Made by a program: the position numbers and the translations under genes. Shown one piece after another: positions 2,892 to 21,823 of a stretch of 23,608 bases of DNA. Positions within the stretch are counted from its first letter, which is position 1; each line of letters opens with the position of its first letter. The notes under the pieces were generated by a model. It was not told where the DNA came from. It saw only the letters and a program-made list of their open reading frames with translations, and did not search any database. This DNA is from a virus, in IMG/VR virus record IMGVR_UViG_3300005466_000277, positions 1 through 23,608 of that record; one strand, 5' to 3'.

Positions 2892-3748
2892 TGGCTACGC
2901 AAATGGCAATGAAGAAGGCGGCGCCTGCTCCGGTAAGCGCACCTCTTAAAGTTCAGCAGCCTATGAAACAAGCTGCGGTGCCTCTGAAACAATCTGGTAC
3001 ACCGGTTAAAAGTTCTTCCTCTTCATCTTCTGGTGGCGGATCTTCGTTTTCTTCAGGTGGCGGTGGAGGCGGCGGTGGAAGTTCTTCGGGTGGTGGTACT
3101 GGGTCTAGTAATTATTCTGGTAGTGCTGGTGGAAGTTTTGCTGGAGGGGGTTCAGTTCCTGATCCGGTTCCCGTTGGGCCGGTTATGGAAGATATTACAA
3201 TCCCGGACCCGCTAGCTGATCCAACTTATCAGCGGCAGAAGGCAGAATTGGCGCGTGCCAAGGCTGATTTTGATGCGCAGCAGAGTCTTGCAAAAGCTCA
3301 ATATGATGGCACTGTCAATACAAATATGCGTCAGATGGGCTGGAGAGATTCTGTCCCGAAGTCTGGCTTGCGTAAAATGTTGACAGGAAATAACGATCCT
3401 GACCCTGCTGGTTGGGATCCGACGGCAACCGGTACTGCATACGGTCAAAGTTTTGCAGGCAACGAAGGTGATTTTGCCGGTCGCGGTCTGTATAATTCTG
3501 GTCTATACGCACAGGCTCAGGGTGATTTGAACAACGATTTTAATGATCGGCGCCAAGGTGTTTTGACGGATCAGAAGAACTGGGGAGACACCCAAGATTT
3601 GAACCGTCGGAATTTCGAGGGGCAGCAGAATTCAACAGATTTGGCGGCTCAATCCGATGCCGTGGCCGCAATTGCTGCAAGGCTTGGCGTGAATATTGAT
3701 CAGGTTTCGCCCGGTAGGCAGAATGTGATTCAGCGCGAGAAGGTGTAA
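2891..3748 (+). CDS. Gly/Ser-rich virion protein
   Basis: 285-residue protein in three parts. Residues 1-40 are Ala/Pro/Lys-rich. Residues about 41-90 are a low-complexity linker of Ser and Gly with one run of eight glycines. From about 105 onward comes a helical region with many Gln, Ala, Arg and Asp residues (for example QRQKAELARAKADFDAQQ), plus GRGLYNSGLYAQAQGDLNNDF near the middle of that region. AGAGGGG six bases before ATG 2891 is a good ribosome site. Similar helix-plus-RQ patterns occur in minor tail or internal virion proteins of actinophages, so I infer a virion role; the linker suggests an extended or flexible N-terminus. No catalytic motif is visible. Confidence 0.6.
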   Translation: MATQMAMKKAAPAPVSAPLKVQQPMKQAAVPLKQSGTPVKSSSSSSSGGGSSFSSGGGGGGGGSSSGGGTGSSNYSGSAGGSFAGGGSVPDPVPVGPVMEDITIPDPLADPTYQRQKAELARAKADFDAQQSLAKAQYDGTVNTNMRQMGWRDSVPKSGLRKMLTGNNDPDPAGWDPTATGTAYGQSFAGNEGDFAGRGLYNSGLYAQAQGDLNNDFNDRRQGVLTDQKNWGDTQDLNRRNFEGQQNSTDLAAQSDAVAAIAARLGVNIDQVSPGRQNVIQREKV

Positions 3749-5450: not shown

Positions 5451-8400
5451 ATGGCTGACGCCAATAGCCGCAAAGCGCAATTAGCGGCAATGACTAATGC
5501 TTATATCACTAGTCTGCAAGGAATCGGGCGGGCGGGCGCAATTAGTTCTGCGCCTTCCCGTCTTGACGCGACTTCGGTGCAAGATTGGGGTCCTGGGGAT
5601 AAATTTCAGCAGCCCGAAAGTTTTAATCTGGGCTCTGCAATCTTGGATTACCTGTCCCGACCGCTCAATGCAGTAACGGGGTTTGCCGCCGCGACTGCGA
5701 ATAATGTCGATGTTCTTTTTGGATCAAAGCCTAAGACGGCAGCCGAAAATCCTTTCGAGCGAGCTGGTGCAAACCTTGTCGGGGATCGAAAAGATTCCGG
5801 CGCGACCCTGATTGATGAGCAATTAAAGCCTGGTTGGGGAGAATCTGACAGTCAGTGGTCAAAAAGTGCTGGACTCGCATCCCAAATTTTGGGCATGTCG
5901 GGTCCGATGTTGGGTGTCGGAGCTGCACCAATTGCTGATGCTGTGTCGAGTCCCCGAAATGCTGTCAAGGGAATTGGTGGCTTGTCGTGGGATCTTATTG
6001 CTGACCCTGTAAATGGAATTGCTGGCGGTGCGGCTGCGGCTGCTAAATTTGCGAAGAGAGCAAAAGTCCCTGTCGCTGATGCTGAGAAGATTCTCGAAGC
6101 TGCACCGAAGCCTGCATTCACTAAGACACCTGAAGATTTGACTGCGGCGGTCCAAGATAATCCGCTTTTTGCTAAGTACACTCCTGAAGAATTGCAGGCT
6201 CACCTAGGACCAGAACTTAGTCAGTTGTCGGTCGAGGACAACCTCACTCCTGCAAAATTTGACGCGCTTGCAACTTCTGCGCAAGATCGTGCTGCCAAAT
6301 TCAATCTTGATGCTCACGCCAAAAATGATGCGCTCATGGCGCATATTAAAGCTGATCCATTTACGCCACTGGATATTGCCCGACAGGAGCAAAAAGTTTC
6401 ACCTCTGGCGGATATGGAGCAGCCTGGTCTTGCGGACAAATTAATTGCACAGTCGGAACTTCCGATTCATCGTGAAGCTCCTGTGTCGAATATTGCTCGG
6501 GATACTGCGACTCCGACAAAGCTGAATAGTTATGAAATGGGCTCTGAACTTCAGCGCCTAAATTCTGCTGCCGCAGCAAAGACACGGGCGGCCGGAATTA
6601 CTGGACCGGAGTCCAAGGGAATTCGTGCACAAGCAATGTACGATGAGGTAATTCCTCAAATGCGTGCATATACTGATGCGCAGGAGGCGAAAGGTCGAAT
6701 TCCTGAAATTGTGGCGGCTGACAAAACAACCTATAACTTGTCGACTGCTGATGTTTTGGAGTCTATTCCGCCCGAAATTGTTCAAGAGGTGCATTTTGGA
6801 GGGTCAGCACAAGCTCGTGACCTGTACCCTTCACAGATTAACGCGGGTGCCGCAACTGCCCTCCGTATGAAGGAGCTGGGCGTCGCAAATGCCGATGCTT
6901 TAGGGTCGGTCGTTCAAGCTATGCGTGATGCGACTCATCCAAAAGCAACAAGAATGCGAGCAATTGAAAAAGCTGGCCATCTTGAAAAAGCTGCACGTGC
7001 GCTTCTGTTAAATACTGATCAGCTTGGTCTGAAACTTGTCGAGAATGCTAAGCGGTTTGCGAAAAAAGATGCTACCGACGCGCGTGCAATTTCTACGACC
7101 CATGCGAATGATGCTATCGCTGCGCTTGAACACGGAAGTGTTCGACAAACTACCGATGCACTTGGTAGTGTCGGTGTCGATGTAGCTAATTCTGCACAAA
7201 AGATTGGAGCATCTGAAAATGCCGCGCATCTCGCAGTCCAAGATCTTGCACCTGTCGTCGCAAAAATCGCACCGGAGGCCGACATTAAGTTCGCCAGAGC
7301 TGCGAAAGCTACTGAGCGAGACAGAATCAAGCACGGAAAAGCCGCTGACGAAAAAGCAGCTAAAAGAACTCGAAACCTCTTGCCCGCCGTTGAGAGAGAC
7401 GCAGAGGCTTTTGCCGCCGAGCATAATGTTCCTTATCTGACGGTTGGAGAAAAAGTCGATGTTCAGAATTTCGAGTACTTGGACCGTCTTCTTCATCCTT
7501 TCAGAAATGCTTTTCAATTCGGCTATCGAACAGGTGATCTTGCAAATGCGCTCCGCAAGGGAATTTCCCGAGCAGACGAGGACGCAAATCAATTCCGTAG
7601 AAGGCTTTCTGAGATAAATAAGAAGCATAGTAAGGAGAATGTTTCTGCTGCGCATACTGCATGGCGTAACGGTGAAATGCCCGTTGACGCTAATGTTTTG
7701 GCTGCATGGAATGATCTAAGGGGGGTCTTGGATCATACATTAGACAACGGTTTAATGGGTCGACTCTGGAGAAACGGCGCCTCAGTCGAATCGGTAAATA
7801 AAGCCTTGAAGGAAAAAGGCTCACCATTCCGATATGATCTAACGAAAGCCGGTGGAGATTACGCCAAGCTCGCCGAGCAACCGCGTAATTGGGATATGAA
7901 AGATCCCTTGTCCGATTTAGAACGTATAAACGCGGCCGCGTTGATTACGGAAGCCCGCCAGACAGTCGGCGCGCTAGCTTCTAAATTCGGTAGCGCAACT
8001 CCCAAGCCAGGCTGGGTGAAGTTGCGTTCCAATGAAACTTCGACACTTGGAGATTTCATCGACAAGGATCTTTTCTATCCTAAGGAAGCTGGCGAGTTCA
8101 TTCAACGCCTGGATGAACTCGCCGGTGCCTCCACAACTTTCCGTGGTGAAAAAGGCGGAATGGCGTGGGCGGCAAATAATGTGATTGACCCGGTCATGCA
8201 ATTGTGGAAGCCCTACATGACAATTGCACGGCCCGGCCATCATTCTCGTAACTTGGTGTCGGACATTATTATGGCGATGTTCGATGGAGTCATGGGTGTC
8301 AAGCCTTATCGCGAGGCAAAAAAGGCGATGGAGGCTGGTGGAAAACTTAAGGCCAACAATGTAGATATTTCCCACGAGCATATAATTCCTTCAACTGATG

Positions 8401-10666: not shown

Positions 10667-10954
10667 ATGTCAAACAACCCAATTAAGCAATTGACATCAC
10701 CGATGGAAATTGCAGCGTGCGCAGGGGAGTCAGTCAGTAAATTTTTTGCTGACGCGGATGGCCTTAAAGGTCAAAAAAGGCGAATGGCCAATTGGGAAGC
10801 GAAGCAGATATGCCATCGTTGCCCATTGATGAAACCTTGCTTACGATATGCTCTCCAGACAAATCAAGTTTTCGGAGTCTGGGGTGGCAAAACCGAAGCG
10901 GAACGTGCTCAATTACAACAAGTCAGAAAACTGATTTTTCCTGGTGGGCGGTAA
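10667..10954 (+). CDS. whiB: WhiB-family iron-sulfur transcription factor
   Basis: 95-residue protein with the full WhiB signature: four cysteines Cys18, Cys49, Cys52 and Cys58 (C-X30-C-X2-C-X5-C) that ligate a 4Fe-4S cluster, followed by the GVWGG turn at 70-74 and a basic C-terminal tail (RKLIFPGGR). WhiB-like proteins are found only in actinobacteria and their phages and act with the primary sigma factor or bind DNA; phage copies such as that of mycobacteriophage TM4 can interfere with host WhiB2 and cause superinfection exclusion. Its expected role here is redirection of host or phage transcription. It is transcribed alone between the terminator and the opposing operon, and its last 42 bases overlap the end of the gene on the other strand. 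Confidence 0.95.
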   Translation: MSNNPIKQLTSPMEIAACAGESVSKFFADADGLKGQKRRMANWEAKQICHRCPLMKPCLRYALQTNQVFGVWGGKTEAERAQLQQVRKLIFPGGR

Positions 10955-17589: not shown

Positions 17590-17973
17590 TCAAATTAAAT
17601 CCGCAAAGGCGTTAACTCGTTGGGGTTGAGCTAGCAACTTTGCTGCCTGGGCCGGGGTCAAAACTTCCGGTGGCGGCGGTGTCTTTTTGAGTTCTTTATA
17701 CATACTCGACACCGCAGGTGGGAGCCACTTTTCAAGACAAGACCAACAATACCATCCCTTCAAAGGCTTAATGTGATAACCCATTCTCGAATGTTGAAAG
17801 AATTGATAATACCGTTCGTGACACTTGCAGCAAACGTGAAGGTTATTGAACCATTTTCGACAGCGCCCGCAAACTGGGGGAACTTTGAAATCACTTGGAA
17901 AAGGCCAGGGGCCACCGTCTCTATATCGGGGAACCTCGCATTCACAAATCTTCCCCTCGAAGAAGTCAGACAT
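17590..17973 (-). CDS. Multi-cysteine zinc-binding protein
   Basis: 127-residue protein with at least three Cys pairs: CEC (10-12), CGRC (35-38), CCKC (48-51) and CWSC (76-79), with His52, His61 and His67 nearby, giving two probable zinc sites. The C-terminal 45 residues are Pro/Ala-rich with a helix (LTPAQAAKLLAQPQ). The ATG overlaps the stop of the gene upstream (TAATG), and it ends ten bases before the primase-helicase GTG. It may be a primase- or DNA-associated zinc-finger accessory; position supports that but no family is recognised. Confidence 0.65.
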   Translation of the reverse strand: MSDFFEGKICECEVPRYRDGGPWPFPSDFKVPPVCGRCRKWFNNLHVCCKCHERYYQFFQHSRMGYHIKPLKGWYCWSCLEKWLPPAVSSMYKELKKTPPPPEVLTPAQAAKLLAQPQRVNAFADLI

Positions 17974-18812: not shown

Positions 18813-18851
18813 ATCCCTAATATCCCTCTTGCGAACCGGCTTATTAGGGAT
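18813..18851 (-). repeat. 10-bp inverted repeat between the two lysis genes
   Basis: ATCCCTAATA (18813-18822) and TATTAGGGAT (18842-18851) form a perfect 10-bp inverted repeat with a 19-base loop. It starts at the stop codon of the amidase gene and fills most of the gap before the lysozyme-like gene. There is no U-run, so an RNA stem that adjusts decay or translation of the downstream gene, or an operator, is more likely than a terminator. Confidence 0.6.
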
Positions 18852-19855
18852 TACTGGGAAGGGGGTGTCGGCTCCGGTTCACCCTTAACAATTCGCTGGA
18901 TGTCATAAACCAGCTTGGTTAGATCAGAAATCTGCGTAGATAGAAAATCCTTATCAGATAGCCCGTACGGGTGTTCTTCGCCACCGTTAGGAATGTGTTC
19001 CTGCGTTCGGGCTCCAATAACGTTTACGTTGCCCTGAATTTCAGTGAGCTTCGCAATGATTGGTGCGAGCAAAAACTCGTCATCTACAGTTCCTGAACGA
19101 AGCGCGTGCTCGAAACCATATGCAACCCACTGCTTAAAATCTTCCTTGCTGTCGAACAGTGCCATGAAATCATCCTCTTCTGTTGGTTCCGGGGGTGTCG
19201 GGAGAATAACTCCGCCTTCGAGTCGTCCTTTAATTAGCTGTCGAAGATCGAAACCTCCGTTGACAGTGTGAAAGGACATATCAATCTTGCGGGAAGAATG
19301 TTCCGCGTGCATATGGCAACGTTTCCAAGTCCAGCCACCGACAATGCACATCGCTGCATTAATATCCCGAGCGATTTCAATTAGTCCTGGCGGCCAAGGC
19401 GTGGAATCTCCCGGGTGGTGCAATTCTGTTCCTGCATAGACAGTTGTAGCACCACTCCAGTTGTCGGAAATTCCGTGAGTTGCTGCCCATCCAATAGGTT
19501 CGATGTCATTAAGGACTCGATCGCGATTCGTCGTGTTTCCTTGTCCGGGATGGTTGGCTGTCCCCACTGCAATAAATCGGATGCGCTTCTTCCCAGTAGT
19601 CGGGTCCACGCCTCCGTAATAATTGCATTTTGGTCCTTGGAGGGTGGAGTCTCCATAGGTGACATTATTCACTCCCGACATAAACGGGGCGCTAAGTGGG
19701 ATTACGAAGTGATGATTCGTATGTGCTCTAGGAATTCCAGCAGCCCACGATGAACCATTACTTCGTCCCCAGCACCCCTCTTGTTCCTCAACGTCATATC
19801 CCCAACCTCGGAGAACTTGATTGACGCGCTGGAAAAAATCAGATGCCTGACTCAT
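18851..19855 (-). CDS. Endolysin, N-acetylmuramoyl-L-alanine amidase
   Basis: 334-residue amidase of the zinc amidase-2 type seen in LysA proteins of mycobacterial and related phages. Residues 37-60 contain AAGIPRAHTNHHFVIPL with the zinc His at 48; RIRFIAVGTANHPGQG (91-106) is the central strand; AGTELHHPGD (141-150) and HMHAEHSSRKIDMSF (181-195) provide the second ligand His and the Lys/Asp pair of the active site. Residues 215-334 follow a Pro-rich linker (LPTPPEPTEEDDF) and form a helical domain ending with a coiled coil and PEPTPPSQ; it could bind the wall or oligomerise. TGAGGGG seven bases upstream supports the ATG. It would hydrolyse the amide bond between muramic acid and L-Ala at the end of infection. 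Confidence 0.9.
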   Translation of the reverse strand: MSQASDFFQRVNQVLRGWGYDVEEQEGCWGRSNGSSWAAGIPRAHTNHHFVIPLSAPFMSGVNNVTYGDSTLQGPKCNYYGGVDPTTGKKRIRFIAVGTANHPGQGNTTNRDRVLNDIEPIGWAATHGISDNWSGATTVYAGTELHHPGDSTPWPPGLIEIARDINAAMCIVGGWTWKRCHMHAEHSSRKIDMSFHTVNGGFDLRQLIKGRLEGGVILPTPPEPTEEDDFMALFDSKEDFKQWVAYGFEHALRSGTVDDEFLLAPIIAKLTEIQGNVNVIGARTQEHIPNGGEEHPYGLSDKDFLSTQISDLTKLVYDIQRIVKGEPEPTPPSQ

Positions 19856-19866
19856 AAATCAGCCCC

Positions 19867-20058
19867 TCAATGATAGGTGGAATTTGAGGTGCAGTAATAA
19901 CCAATGGCTGCCAAATATCCCGCGTAACTTGCGCTAGAAGTTCCGACAGAATGGTAACCGCTTCGACACTGCCAATACTGACCTGCTTCCGCGTTGGTAA
20001 TTCCGACAGCCGTCAAAATTCCGACAGCTGCAAGGATGGATGCAATCTTACGCTTCAC
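19867..20058 (-). CDS. Exported Cys-containing peptide, unknown
   Basis: 63-residue precursor with a clear Sec signal peptide: MKRK, then a hydrophobic core rich in Ala, Val, Ile and Leu, and a cleavage site after Ala25 (AEA before GQYW). The 38-residue mature part is aromatic and Ser/Gly-rich with two cysteines (Cys31 and Cys56) that could form a disulfide. The GTG start overlaps the stop of the Acb2-like gene (GTGA), and AAGGGCGG four bases upstream gives a ribosome site, so translation is probably coupled. A 12-bp direct repeat lies in the signal-peptide DNA. An exported phage peptide next to the endolysin suggests a role at the envelope, for instance superinfection exclusion or lysis timing; this is speculative. 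Confidence 0.7.
   Translation of the reverse strand: MKRKIASILAAVGILTAVGITNAEAGQYWQCRSGYHSVGTSSASYAGYLAAIGYYCTSNSTYH
19999..20028 (-). repeat. 12-bp direct repeat in the signal-peptide DNA
   Basis: AATTCCGACAGC occurs at 19999-20010 and again at 20017-20028, 18 bases apart, so the repeat keeps frame and encodes the related segments AVGILT and AVGITN of the signal peptide core. Each copy includes the CCGACA hexamer that is over-represented across the window. It may be a simple duplication that lengthened the hydrophobic core. Confidence 0.75.
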
Positions 20059-20240
20059 AAAGCCGCCCTTACAAAACAGTCCTTAGCTTCAAGGAGTTTA
20101 CGAAGACCCGCCGATTTTTCGGGGCCGTCTGGCAACGTAGTTTCTGCAAAGGTAGCAAGACTTCTGAATGGCGCACTAACTTCTTGCAAGTTTGCAGGGA
20201 GATGCTCGTAGTCAAAATACTTCAGAATGGGCGAGGCCAT
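20055..20240 (-). CDS. acb2: Acb2-like cyclic-nucleotide sponge (anti-CBASS candidate)
   Basis: 61-residue protein from ATG 20240, with AGGAG seven bases upstream (a TTG one codon earlier is less likely). It has the features I associate with the Acb2/Tad1 hairpin family: FDYEHLPANLQEVSAPF near the start, then DGPEKSAGLRKLLEAKDCFVRAAL as the C-terminal helix. Members form small helical assemblies that sequester cyclic di- and trinucleotides made by CBASS or related immune systems. Published contacts as I recall them, Tyr11 and Lys26 of the PaMx33 protein, would fall on Tyr11 and Arg26 here if the numbering is collinear, which I cannot verify. It is shorter than typical members (about 70-95). 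Its stop overlaps the exported-peptide start, and it begins three bases after the membrane mini-protein. Confidence 0.75.
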   Translation of the reverse strand: MASPILKYFDYEHLPANLQEVSAPFRSLATFAETTLPDGPEKSAGLRKLLEAKDCFVRAAL

Positions 20241-20243
20241 CAA

Positions 20244-20324
20244 TTATCTCCTGATGAAGAATCCGGCGAGTGCCAGAACGAGTAGAATGGCAACGATGAT
20301 GAAAGTCCACATTGCAAAATCCAT
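20244..20324 (-). CDS. 26-aa single-span membrane mini-protein
   Basis: A very short gene supported by the best ribosome site in this region, AAGGAGAG ending four bases before ATG 20324. The product is almost all membrane segment: MDFAMW, about 18 hydrophobic residues (FIIVAILLVLALAGFF), then IRR. The positive C-terminus predicts N-out/C-in. A longer in-frame reading from TTG 20432 adds 36 residues but has no ribosome site. It lies directly upstream of the Acb2-like gene and near the endolysin; a holin-like, antiholin or envelope-modulating role is possible. No other holin candidate is visible in the window. Confidence 0.65.
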   Translation of the reverse strand: MDFAMWTFIIVAILLVLALAGFFIRR

Positions 20325-20483
20325 GATGCTCTCCTTAAATAGGATTTTTATGCGGGGCACCCCTCCCGCTCCCTCGGCTCTACCATAACCTTGCTTTCGC
20401 CTTACCCGAGGCCCGACGTAAAAATTAACCAACTCGCGTGCCCATGTCGGGATTCCTTTCTATGACCCCGACACTAGTTTATC
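20325..20483 (-). promoter_or_regulatory. 159-bp leader before the membrane mini-protein
   Basis: The gap after the SSB-like gene is the longest untranslated stretch within the minus operon. Just after the SSB stop it holds an inverted repeat, TGTCGGG (20445-20451) and CCCGACA (20467-20473). A six-codon ORF (20425-20445, encoding MGTRVG) has AAAGGA eight bases upstream of its ATG, with that ribosome site in the loop of the repeat. Further on is a CCTCGG/CCGAGG pair (20372-20377, 20406-20411) and a GC-rich run. I see no convincing -35/-10 pair. A structured leader or an uncharted promoter for the accessory genes is inferred. Confidence 0.4.
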
Positions 20484-20966
20484 TCAGGCCCAAGGATTAC
20501 TGCCAGAAGAATTCGCTCCGACTTCTTCGCGAGCAGACACCGCCGAATCATGCACCTGGTAATCATCATCGGATGCAAGACCGATGATATTCGTGAAGAC
20601 CTGCCCGGCCTTCTTTCCTGCTTTGCGCTCGATCACGACATTTTCGAACCCGACAAGCTTTTCCGGGTCCTCGGAGATATCATCCCACTCGTCCTCGGGA
20701 ATTTCGAGAGCCGACAACATCTTCTTGATGTTGGAATTTGTGCGAGCCTGCTGCTTGGAATCTCCACCAAGGAAAAACAGGTGCTCCTGGTCCTGGTCAG
20801 GATCTTCACAGTGGAAGACAATTGCCCAGGTGTTGTACTCCGTGCCGTCACTACCCTTGAATGATTTCGGCCCGGACTTAGTAATGCTCGTGACGTGTCG
20901 GCCCTCTGGCAAATTAAACGGGTCGTCATTTGCGGCTGCGACATCTTCTGTATTAAACATGCCCAT
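20484..20966 (-). CDS. OB-fold single-stranded DNA-binding protein (SSB-like)
   Basis: 160 residues from ATG 20966, selected because GGAGG lies ten bases upstream; a TTG three codons earlier would sit too close to it. The core is beta-rich with LPEGRHVTSITKSGPKSFKG and YNTWAIVFHCEDPDQDQEHLFFLGG, followed by a helical part and IERKAGKKAGQVFTNIIGL, consistent with an OB fold. The acidic, Ser/Gly-rich tail ends in SNPWA, like the protein-interaction tails of SSBs. It lies just after the Sak4-like gene, a pairing common in phage recombination modules. Assignment is by pattern and neighbours; no sequence identity can be measured. Confidence 0.65.
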   Translation of the reverse strand: MGMFNTEDVAAANDDPFNLPEGRHVTSITKSGPKSFKGSDGTEYNTWAIVFHCEDPDQDQEHLFFLGGDSKQQARTNSNIKKMLSALEIPEDEWDDISEDPEKLVGFENVVIERKAGKKAGQVFTNIIGLASDDDYQVHDSAVSAREEVGANSSGSNPWA

Positions 20967-20971
20967 TTGAA

Positions 20972-21823
20972 TCAAACCTCCACAGGTTCTAGTTCTTTAC
21001 TGACTTGACTTGTGTTGTTACTTAGCACGTACTCACGAATTGCTCGTTGGACTTCTTCTGGCGGTAGTTCAGTAGGCATCGGCTTTCCGTCTAGTTGGAC
21101 CCTTGTTTTCGCTAGGGCAAGATTTGTTCCCCAGACTTGGACTTGTCGGACTAGCTTAACATCCTTGCCAGTTTTTACCTCCTTTAATTCACAGAACCCG
21201 ATCATTTCGAGTTCCGCTCGGATTGCATTCCCCACTTGAGGTTGAAAAGCTGGGGAAAGTTTCTGAAAACCCTTTACCTCATCAGTCCGGTAATGCGCAA
21301 CTGTCAAAAGGTTAAGCGTGGGTATCGACTGAAACTGTTGCATGATGTATCGGAACTTATTACCGGCAATTGCATAATCAGGTCGAGTGGCAAAGTTTTC
21401 TTCCTTGGAATCGTCAGCTTGGGCTCGCCCTTCGACAACAACATCAAGAATGTATTGCCCCATTGTCGACGCTTCATCCAAAACGAGCGTCGCCACATTA
21501 CCAAATCCCCCAGCGTGGGATCGAAGCGCTTTACCGAGTTCCTTGAGCTGAATTTCCCCGTCGAAGTGAAGTAGCAGCATACGTCCGCGCAACTTTGCAT
21601 CCAGGTCGGGGTGATTTCTGATTGTCTGGAATCCAGATGATGTGTCGACATAGAGTATTTTCTTAGATACCGGAGTGATATCGGCCGCCACTTCGAGAGC
21701 CAGCTTGGATTTTCCAGATCCGTTGTCTCCATAAAACATCCCCATGAATTTTGTCGGACGCTGGTTGTAATCTGGCTCTAGTGCATTTTCTAGCGCAGCA
21801 AGATTCCATTTACTAAATACCAT
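20972..21823 (-). CDS. Sak4-like RecA-fold ATPase (recombination)
   Basis: 283-residue ATPase of the AAA_24/Sak4 type. Walker A is GDNGSGKS (32-39) right after GMFY; KILYVDTSSG (55-64) follows; Walker B VLDEAS is at 114-119; a sensor-like LLTVAHYRTDE is near 194-204. The C-terminal part is a beta sheet and then an acidic tail. Sak4 proteins are phage single-strand annealing or strand-exchange enzymes and pair with an SSB and a RecB-like nuclease, both encoded beside it. AAGGGGA eight bases upstream supports the ATG, which overlaps the MazG gene stop by 11 bases. Confidence 0.83.
   Translation of the reverse strand: MVFSKWNLAALENALEPDYNQRPTKFMGMFYGDNGSGKSKLALEVAADITPVSKKILYVDTSSGFQTIRNHPDLDAKLRGRMLLLHFDGEIQLKELGKALRSHAGGFGNVATLVLDEASTMGQYILDVVVEGRAQADDSKEENFATRPDYAIAGNKFRYIMQQFQSIPTLNLLTVAHYRTDEVKGFQKLSPAFQPQVGNAIRAELEMIGFCELKEVKTGKDVKLVRQVQVWGTNLALAKTRVQLDGKPMPTELPPEEVQRAIREYVLSNNTSQVSKELEPVEV

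Follow-up and report, generated by a model that had tools for sequence, protein, structure and literature searches.

Three small genes on the minus strand of a phage fragment, read from position 20324 down to 19867 in the replication arm, seem on balance to form the front of a lysis cassette. The slot that holds them, bounded by the SSB and primase genes, is variable, and a putative nucleotide sponge lies in their midst. The window, i.e. the whole stretch of DNA analyzed, is a 23.6-kb virus record (23,608 nucleotides). The central gene (gene 2) is flanked by genes for a predicted membrane peptide (gene 1) and a predicted exported peptide (gene 3), and an endolysin gene follows directly. The slot changes in make-up from relative to relative, and the family of gene 2 is enriched beside lysis genes in unrelated phages.

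Organization of the region

The features of the region are listed in Table 1. All three open frames described in the sequence-only reading were found on the minus strand, together with the 3-base gap between genes 1 and 2 (20241-20243), the GTGA overlap of genes 2 and 3 (20058-20055), and their location, flanked by an SSB-like gene on one side and by an endolysin on the other. Were gene 2 to begin at the in-frame TTG that precedes its start by one codon, the gap would vanish. The same reading granted each gene a good ribosome site, which is slightly overstated: gene 1 has AAGGAG at a distance of 6 nt and gene 2 has AGGAG at 7 nt, both good, gene 3 being preceded by the weak AAGGGCGG only. The genes may be co-expressed. 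The 144-aa gene beyond the endolysin is a possible second lysin, judged from its sequence.

Table 1. Features of the island and of its borders in the window
Feature	Position	Strand	Evidence or remark
SSB-like gene, upstream border of the variable island	20484..20975	-	phrog_378, E 4.5e-5; same place in about 30 relatives
GC hairpin GCGGG-AGGGGTGC-CCCGC	20351..20369	-	in the 159-nt gap from the SSB to the membrane peptide gene
Gene 1, predicted 26-aa single-helix membrane peptide, MDFAMWTFIIVAILLVLALAGFFIRR	20244..20324	-	strong ribosome site and helix
Gene 2, 61-aa Acb2/Tad1-hairpin-like protein, MASPILKYFDYEHLPANLQEVS...DCFVRAAL	20055..20240	-	PHROG, AF2, BFVD, hhalign
Gene 3, predicted exported 63-aa two-Cys peptide, GTG start at 20058	19867..20058	-	signal-peptide-like N-terminus
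Endolysin, N-acetylmuramoyl-L-alanine amidase type by motif	18851..19855	-	phrog_880 (endolysin), E 4e-14
Lysozyme/transglycosylase-like gene, 144 aa	18363..18797	-	weak; Pfam Lys E 0.033 only, FSES...GMFQ motif by eye
Cys-rich (zinc-type) gene, downstream border of the island	17590..17973	-	homologues directly before the primase in L084, L091 and L097

The GC hairpin downstream of the SSB gene is kept in two relatives, L084 (6093-6110, plus strand) and L091 (about 5904-5921, plus strand). In the latter a paired base change turns GCGGG...CCCGC into GTGGG...CCCAC. Hairpins of this kind are expected 0.03 times by chance in the window, and the element could be a regulatory one ahead of the island. 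Promoters and terminators in the region are no more numerous than in shuffled sequences, and neither Rfam families nor tRNA genes were detected in the window.

Variation of the SSB-primase interval

The phage is of the soil actinobacterial type, and its host is probably an actinobacterium. The fragment has no close relatives, and no near-identical phages, in the annotated phage collection. Relatives were gathered with the polymerase as query; searches with the SSB returned a single weak SSB match, those with the endolysin none. The polymerase is about 60% identical to those of the metagenomic contigs L083 and L084 and 43% identical to those of the Arthrobacter phages Brad and Jasmine, Cellulosimicrobium phage DS1 and Microbacterium phage Shocker being more distant. 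Brad, Jasmine and DS1 share with the window the order of the replication genes (exonuclease, AAA ATPase, SSB, primase, polymerase). Unlike the window, they carry neither lysis genes nor an Acb2 gene between SSB and primase. In DS1, as in the relatives L127 and L128, an Acb2-like domain is encoded downstream of the polymerase instead.

The interval could be read in about 30 relatives, in many of which SSB and primase abut, and in none of which are the same three genes found in the same order. In L084, the nearest relative, the slot holds nothing but an exported lipoprotein-like Cys peptide, in L120 nothing but a canonical Acb2, and in L119 nothing but a 27-aa membrane peptide plus tRNAs. In L100 a canonical Acb2 comes first, followed by an exported Cys protein of 209 aa, a membrane peptide of 38 aa and an amidase-like endolysin. 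The membrane peptide gene lies 3 nt before the amidase gene there, and the whole arrangement is found unchanged in contig L194. L093 has the slot of L100 without Acb2, and its 37-aa membrane peptide gene lies 5 nt before the endolysin. In L091 the gene for a 98-aa one-helix protein overlaps a gene 2 relative by GTGA, and an endolysin of the peptidase type comes next. Thus, a one-helix membrane protein accompanies the slot endolysin in all three relatives that have one (L091, L093, L100), an Acb2-type gene in two of the three, an exported Cys protein also in two, and gene order differs among them.

A fixed trio is ruled out by these differing contents and orders. The sequence-only reading had made its proposal depend on conservation of the three genes and of their order; the parts occur alone in L084, L120 and L119, and are largely independent and varied in position among relatives. 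The slot is a variable island in which parts come and go. Its one steady feature is the pairing of a one-helix membrane protein and an endolysin, which Acb2-type genes and genes for exported Cys proteins often accompany.

Genes for tRNA-Leu(UAA, anticodon TAA) lie in the slot of L092 (6942-7016), L093 (6172-6255), L100 (5931-6013) and L119 (7887-7961), and genes for tRNA-Gln, -Ile or -Lys come later; none of these occurs in the window. The 209-aa exported protein beside the endolysin, featuring six cysteines, is common to L100 (6392-7021) and L093 (6277-6906), and that of L093 has no relatives in annotated phages.

A slot so variable in content, harbouring tRNA-Leu(UAA) and other tRNAs in L092, L093, L100 and L119, might be just a landing place for small accessory genes behind the SSB, the four genes of the window sharing a transcript and not a function; Acb2-like genes are indeed found at many other places in phage genomes. 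We regard this as rather unlikely, as endolysin and one-helix protein recur jointly in the slot, and the gene 2 family is enriched beside lysis genes in phages otherwise unrelated.

The gene 2 family and its kinship to Acb2

By sequence similarity, gene 2 belongs to a very common phage family. It is a direct member of two PHROG families lacking a function label, phrog_1761 (E 1.4e-28) and phrog_5120 (E 2e-24), and has relatives in at least hundreds of IMG/VR stretches and in 338 annotated phage records (phages of Vibrio, Erwinia, Acinetobacter, Mycobacterium, Gordonia, Brevibacterium and others). The motif EKSAGLRKLLEAKD..VR is strikingly conserved across hosts in the family alignment.

Gene 2 lies below the gathering score of the Acb2 family PF24729 and has no Pfam match at all. 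Among 36 family members, five reach PF24729 weakly (best E 0.009); the Acb2 proteins of L100 and L120 pass it with 64 and 58 bits, respectively, vs. a cut-off of 27. The family profile matches the Acb2 of L100, a PF24729 member, in hhalign (E 5.7e-6), and finds no match when aligned to T4 Vs.4 alone. PHROG families are cross-linked in the same sense: phrog_1454, which is the family of the L100 Acb2, matches gene 2 weakly (E 0.004), as phrog_1761 does the L100 protein. The AF2 model of gene 2 is a helical hairpin (pLDDT 95, helices at residues 16-35 and 40-60). Fold matches in BFVD include the direct family first, then many proteins named 'Acb2/Tad1 hairpin domain-containing' (probability up to 1.00, TM about 0.7), one of which is from phage Jasmine. 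PDB searches by sequence and by fold (Foldseek) did not return Acb2 for gene 2; the absence of Acb2 from VIA-align results is uninformative, as this procedure merely re-ranks the Foldseek list.

Gene 2 is tied to Acb2 because L100 and L120 have canonical Acb2 proteins in this very slot, and because hhalign, the PHROG cross-matches and the fold agree. By homology and predicted fold, it encodes a relative of the Acb2 hairpin, and the label 'Acb2-like' given to the middle protein by the sequence-only reading is borne out. Acb2 proteins (T4 Vs.4, PaMx33 gp24; PF24729) and gene 2 are alike small helical-hairpin phage proteins, both having an aromatic residue early in the hairpin. Gene 2 is shorter (61 vs. 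88-94 aa) and escapes Pfam detection, and its family differs from Acb2 in a signature of its own (YFxYxHLP...EKSAGLRKLLEAKD) and in the recurrent position beside spanin and endolysin genes. The dinucleotide site of T4 Acb2 features two aromatic stacking residues, Tyr8 and Phe82 (PMC12657218). In a hand alignment Tyr11 of gene 2 corresponds to Tyr8, a position at which almost all of the 36 aligned relatives have Y or F; at the position of Phe82 the family has Leu. Gene 2 is probably a cyclic-nucleotide sponge, its binding of cyclic oligonucleotides being predicted from this kinship. The assignment to the family is held with higher confidence than any role of genes 1 and 3 in lysis.

Association with lysis genes

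The neighbourhood of the family was monitored in 45 independent contigs with unrelated flanks, drawn from the best 80 relatives of gene 2. For the genes on the same strand within 1 kb (130 in all), the commonest PHROG families are Rz-like spanins and endolysins; 2.5-3.5 kb away (90 genes) no lysis family ranks among the 25 most frequent. Local phmmer searches with seed lysis genes gave no matches, and HMMs were used instead. By these, an endolysin or spanin resides within 1 kb in 11 of the 45 loci, and the far set yielded none, a zero that is biased, as the HMMs were built from the near genes, and with which the independent PHROG scan agrees.

The order is endolysin, holin, gene 2 relative in Brevibacterium phage AGM3. 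The relative lies between lysin genes in Gordonia phage Jumbo, overlaps Rz in Citrobacter phage phiNP, and is found two genes before lysin A in Gustavvirus phages. About three-quarters of the copies are not beside lysis genes, and relatives reside outside the lysis cassette in Acinetobacter and Vibrio phages, BigNuz, Vincenzo, Finkle and others. The association is hence recurrent, not obligatory.

Gene 2 may have kept the Acb2 hairpin for a role other than that of a CBASS sponge, such as lysis control or a structural part. The conservation of EKSAGLRKLLEAKD..VR across hosts is tighter than usual for arms-race genes, the family is distinct from PF24729, and spanin neighbours are frequent. Such a role is unlikely: canonical Acb2 proteins fill the same slot in relatives, the fold matches are of the Acb2 type, and the position of T4 Tyr8 is kept as Y or F in nearly all relatives of the hand alignment.

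Neither Acb2 proteins nor actinophage lysis cassettes are new. Their pairing, and the enrichment of this Acb2-hairpin branch beside spanins and endolysins, were not found in the literature searched, coverage of which is incomplete; the recurrent place of the family beside lysis genes seems to be undescribed so far. If the family binds cyclic oligonucleotides, a large set of phage genes now called 'unknown', with 338 annotated phage records among them, would become counter-defence genes having the lysis cassette as a testable partner.

Predicted membrane and exported peptides

The membrane peptide announced by the sequence-only reading is confirmed as a 26-aa product with one strong predicted helix, the strongest membrane segment of the fragment. 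The signal-peptide-like stretch of gene 3 aside, no other gene of the fragment features a clear membrane helix. Small open frames combining a strong ribosome site and a membrane helix were absent from 40 second-order Markov shuffles and number two in the window, the second being a GTG frame (3075-3215, plus strand) inside a Gly-rich gene. Searches of Pfam, PHROG and NCBIfam gave no notable match for gene 1, and no known holin family was matched. Sequence similarity among the membrane peptides of the relatives is not significant. In the 80 loci of gene 2 relatives, a membrane mini-gene directly upstream is not the rule.

Actinobacteriophages are known to have one-helix lysis proteins whose sequences differ widely (PMC13056207, PMC9671378). 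In their lysis cassettes (LysF1b, PMC13056207; Gordonia phages, PMC9671378), as in the window, one-helix membrane genes are packed against lysin genes, and vary greatly in sequence and order. LysF1b counts 124 aa and has a C-terminal domain that is charged; the product of gene 1, at 26 aa, is almost devoid of a soluble part. Given its transmembrane helix and its grouping with the endolysin, two small genes away from the amidase, gene 1 probably encodes a lysis-associated, holin-like peptide. A true holin may reside in the part of the genome beyond the 23.6-kb fragment.

Gene 3 has a signal-peptide-like N-terminus (KRK, a hydrophobic stretch, NAEA|GQ) and cysteines at positions 31 and 56; searches of viral contigs, phages and 85k genomes found no relative. 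It was accepted as a gene solely because of this start, the overlap with gene 2 and the tight packing. It has no lipobox (TNAEA|GQ), and matches no lysis family in Pfam or PHROG, Rz1-like spanins included. Homology to the exported peptide of L084 was rejected: both feature W-x-C and a later C, yet only position is common to the two, because their mature parts score below the shuffle mean.

A proposed lysis module with an embedded putative sponge

In the reading of the three genes as the front of a lysis cassette, the 26-aa peptide would insert in the inner membrane and help set or permit lysis, as a holin-like or accessory component, and the amidase encoded downstream, perhaps along with the lysozyme-like protein, would cut the wall. 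The 61-aa protein would oligomerise in the cytosol as an Acb2-type hairpin and soak up cyclic oligonucleotide alarm signals, so keeping CBASS-type effectors from killing the cell, or breaking its membrane, before the lysis programme of the phage has come to its end. The exported peptide would act outside the membrane, perhaps on the envelope, which is a guess. CBASS brings about the early death of the infected cell, and lysis genes end the infection on the terms of the phage. Control of host death and control of lysis would be joined in one gene group, which makes the idea directly testable.

That the genes are instead a dedicated anti-defence island, in which the sponge removes the signal, the peptides guard the envelope against membrane-acting CBASS effectors or exclude superinfecting phages, and the endolysin is a mere neighbour, fits their tight coupling and the fact that Acb2 proteins act against signalling systems with membrane-disrupting effectors, Cap15 among them (PMC12657218), but is quite improbable, as no relative keeps the three together without endolysin, the parts occur alone, and genes 1 and 3 match no model of the defence library. 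The sequence-only reading had offered either an anti-defence set or a mixed lysis and defence cassette; the comparative data are better fitted by the mixed cassette than by the pure set. The tie it drew between the membrane peptide and CBASS effectors is unsupported, nothing having been found to link the two.

A long shot, going beyond the lysis module with a sponge, is that the YFxYxHLP branch is lysis-linked and couples the nucleotide alarm signals of the host to lysis timing, rather than acting merely as a passive sponge. Lysis would then be held or released by the level of free signal, and the presence of the branch in lysis cassettes of unrelated phages would be due to this coupling.

Other observations

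The window encodes a WhiB-like small Cys protein (10667-10954, plus strand) downstream of an NlpC/P60 tail lysin. At the matching place Brad has a WhiB gene and a holin; the holin is missing there in the window. In Cellulosimicrobium phage DS1 (L086), the gene at 19021-19608, annotated as a sliding clamp, is a C2H2-type zinc finger frame with an Acb2-like domain of the gene 2 family fused in it, and its deposited product name looks wrong.
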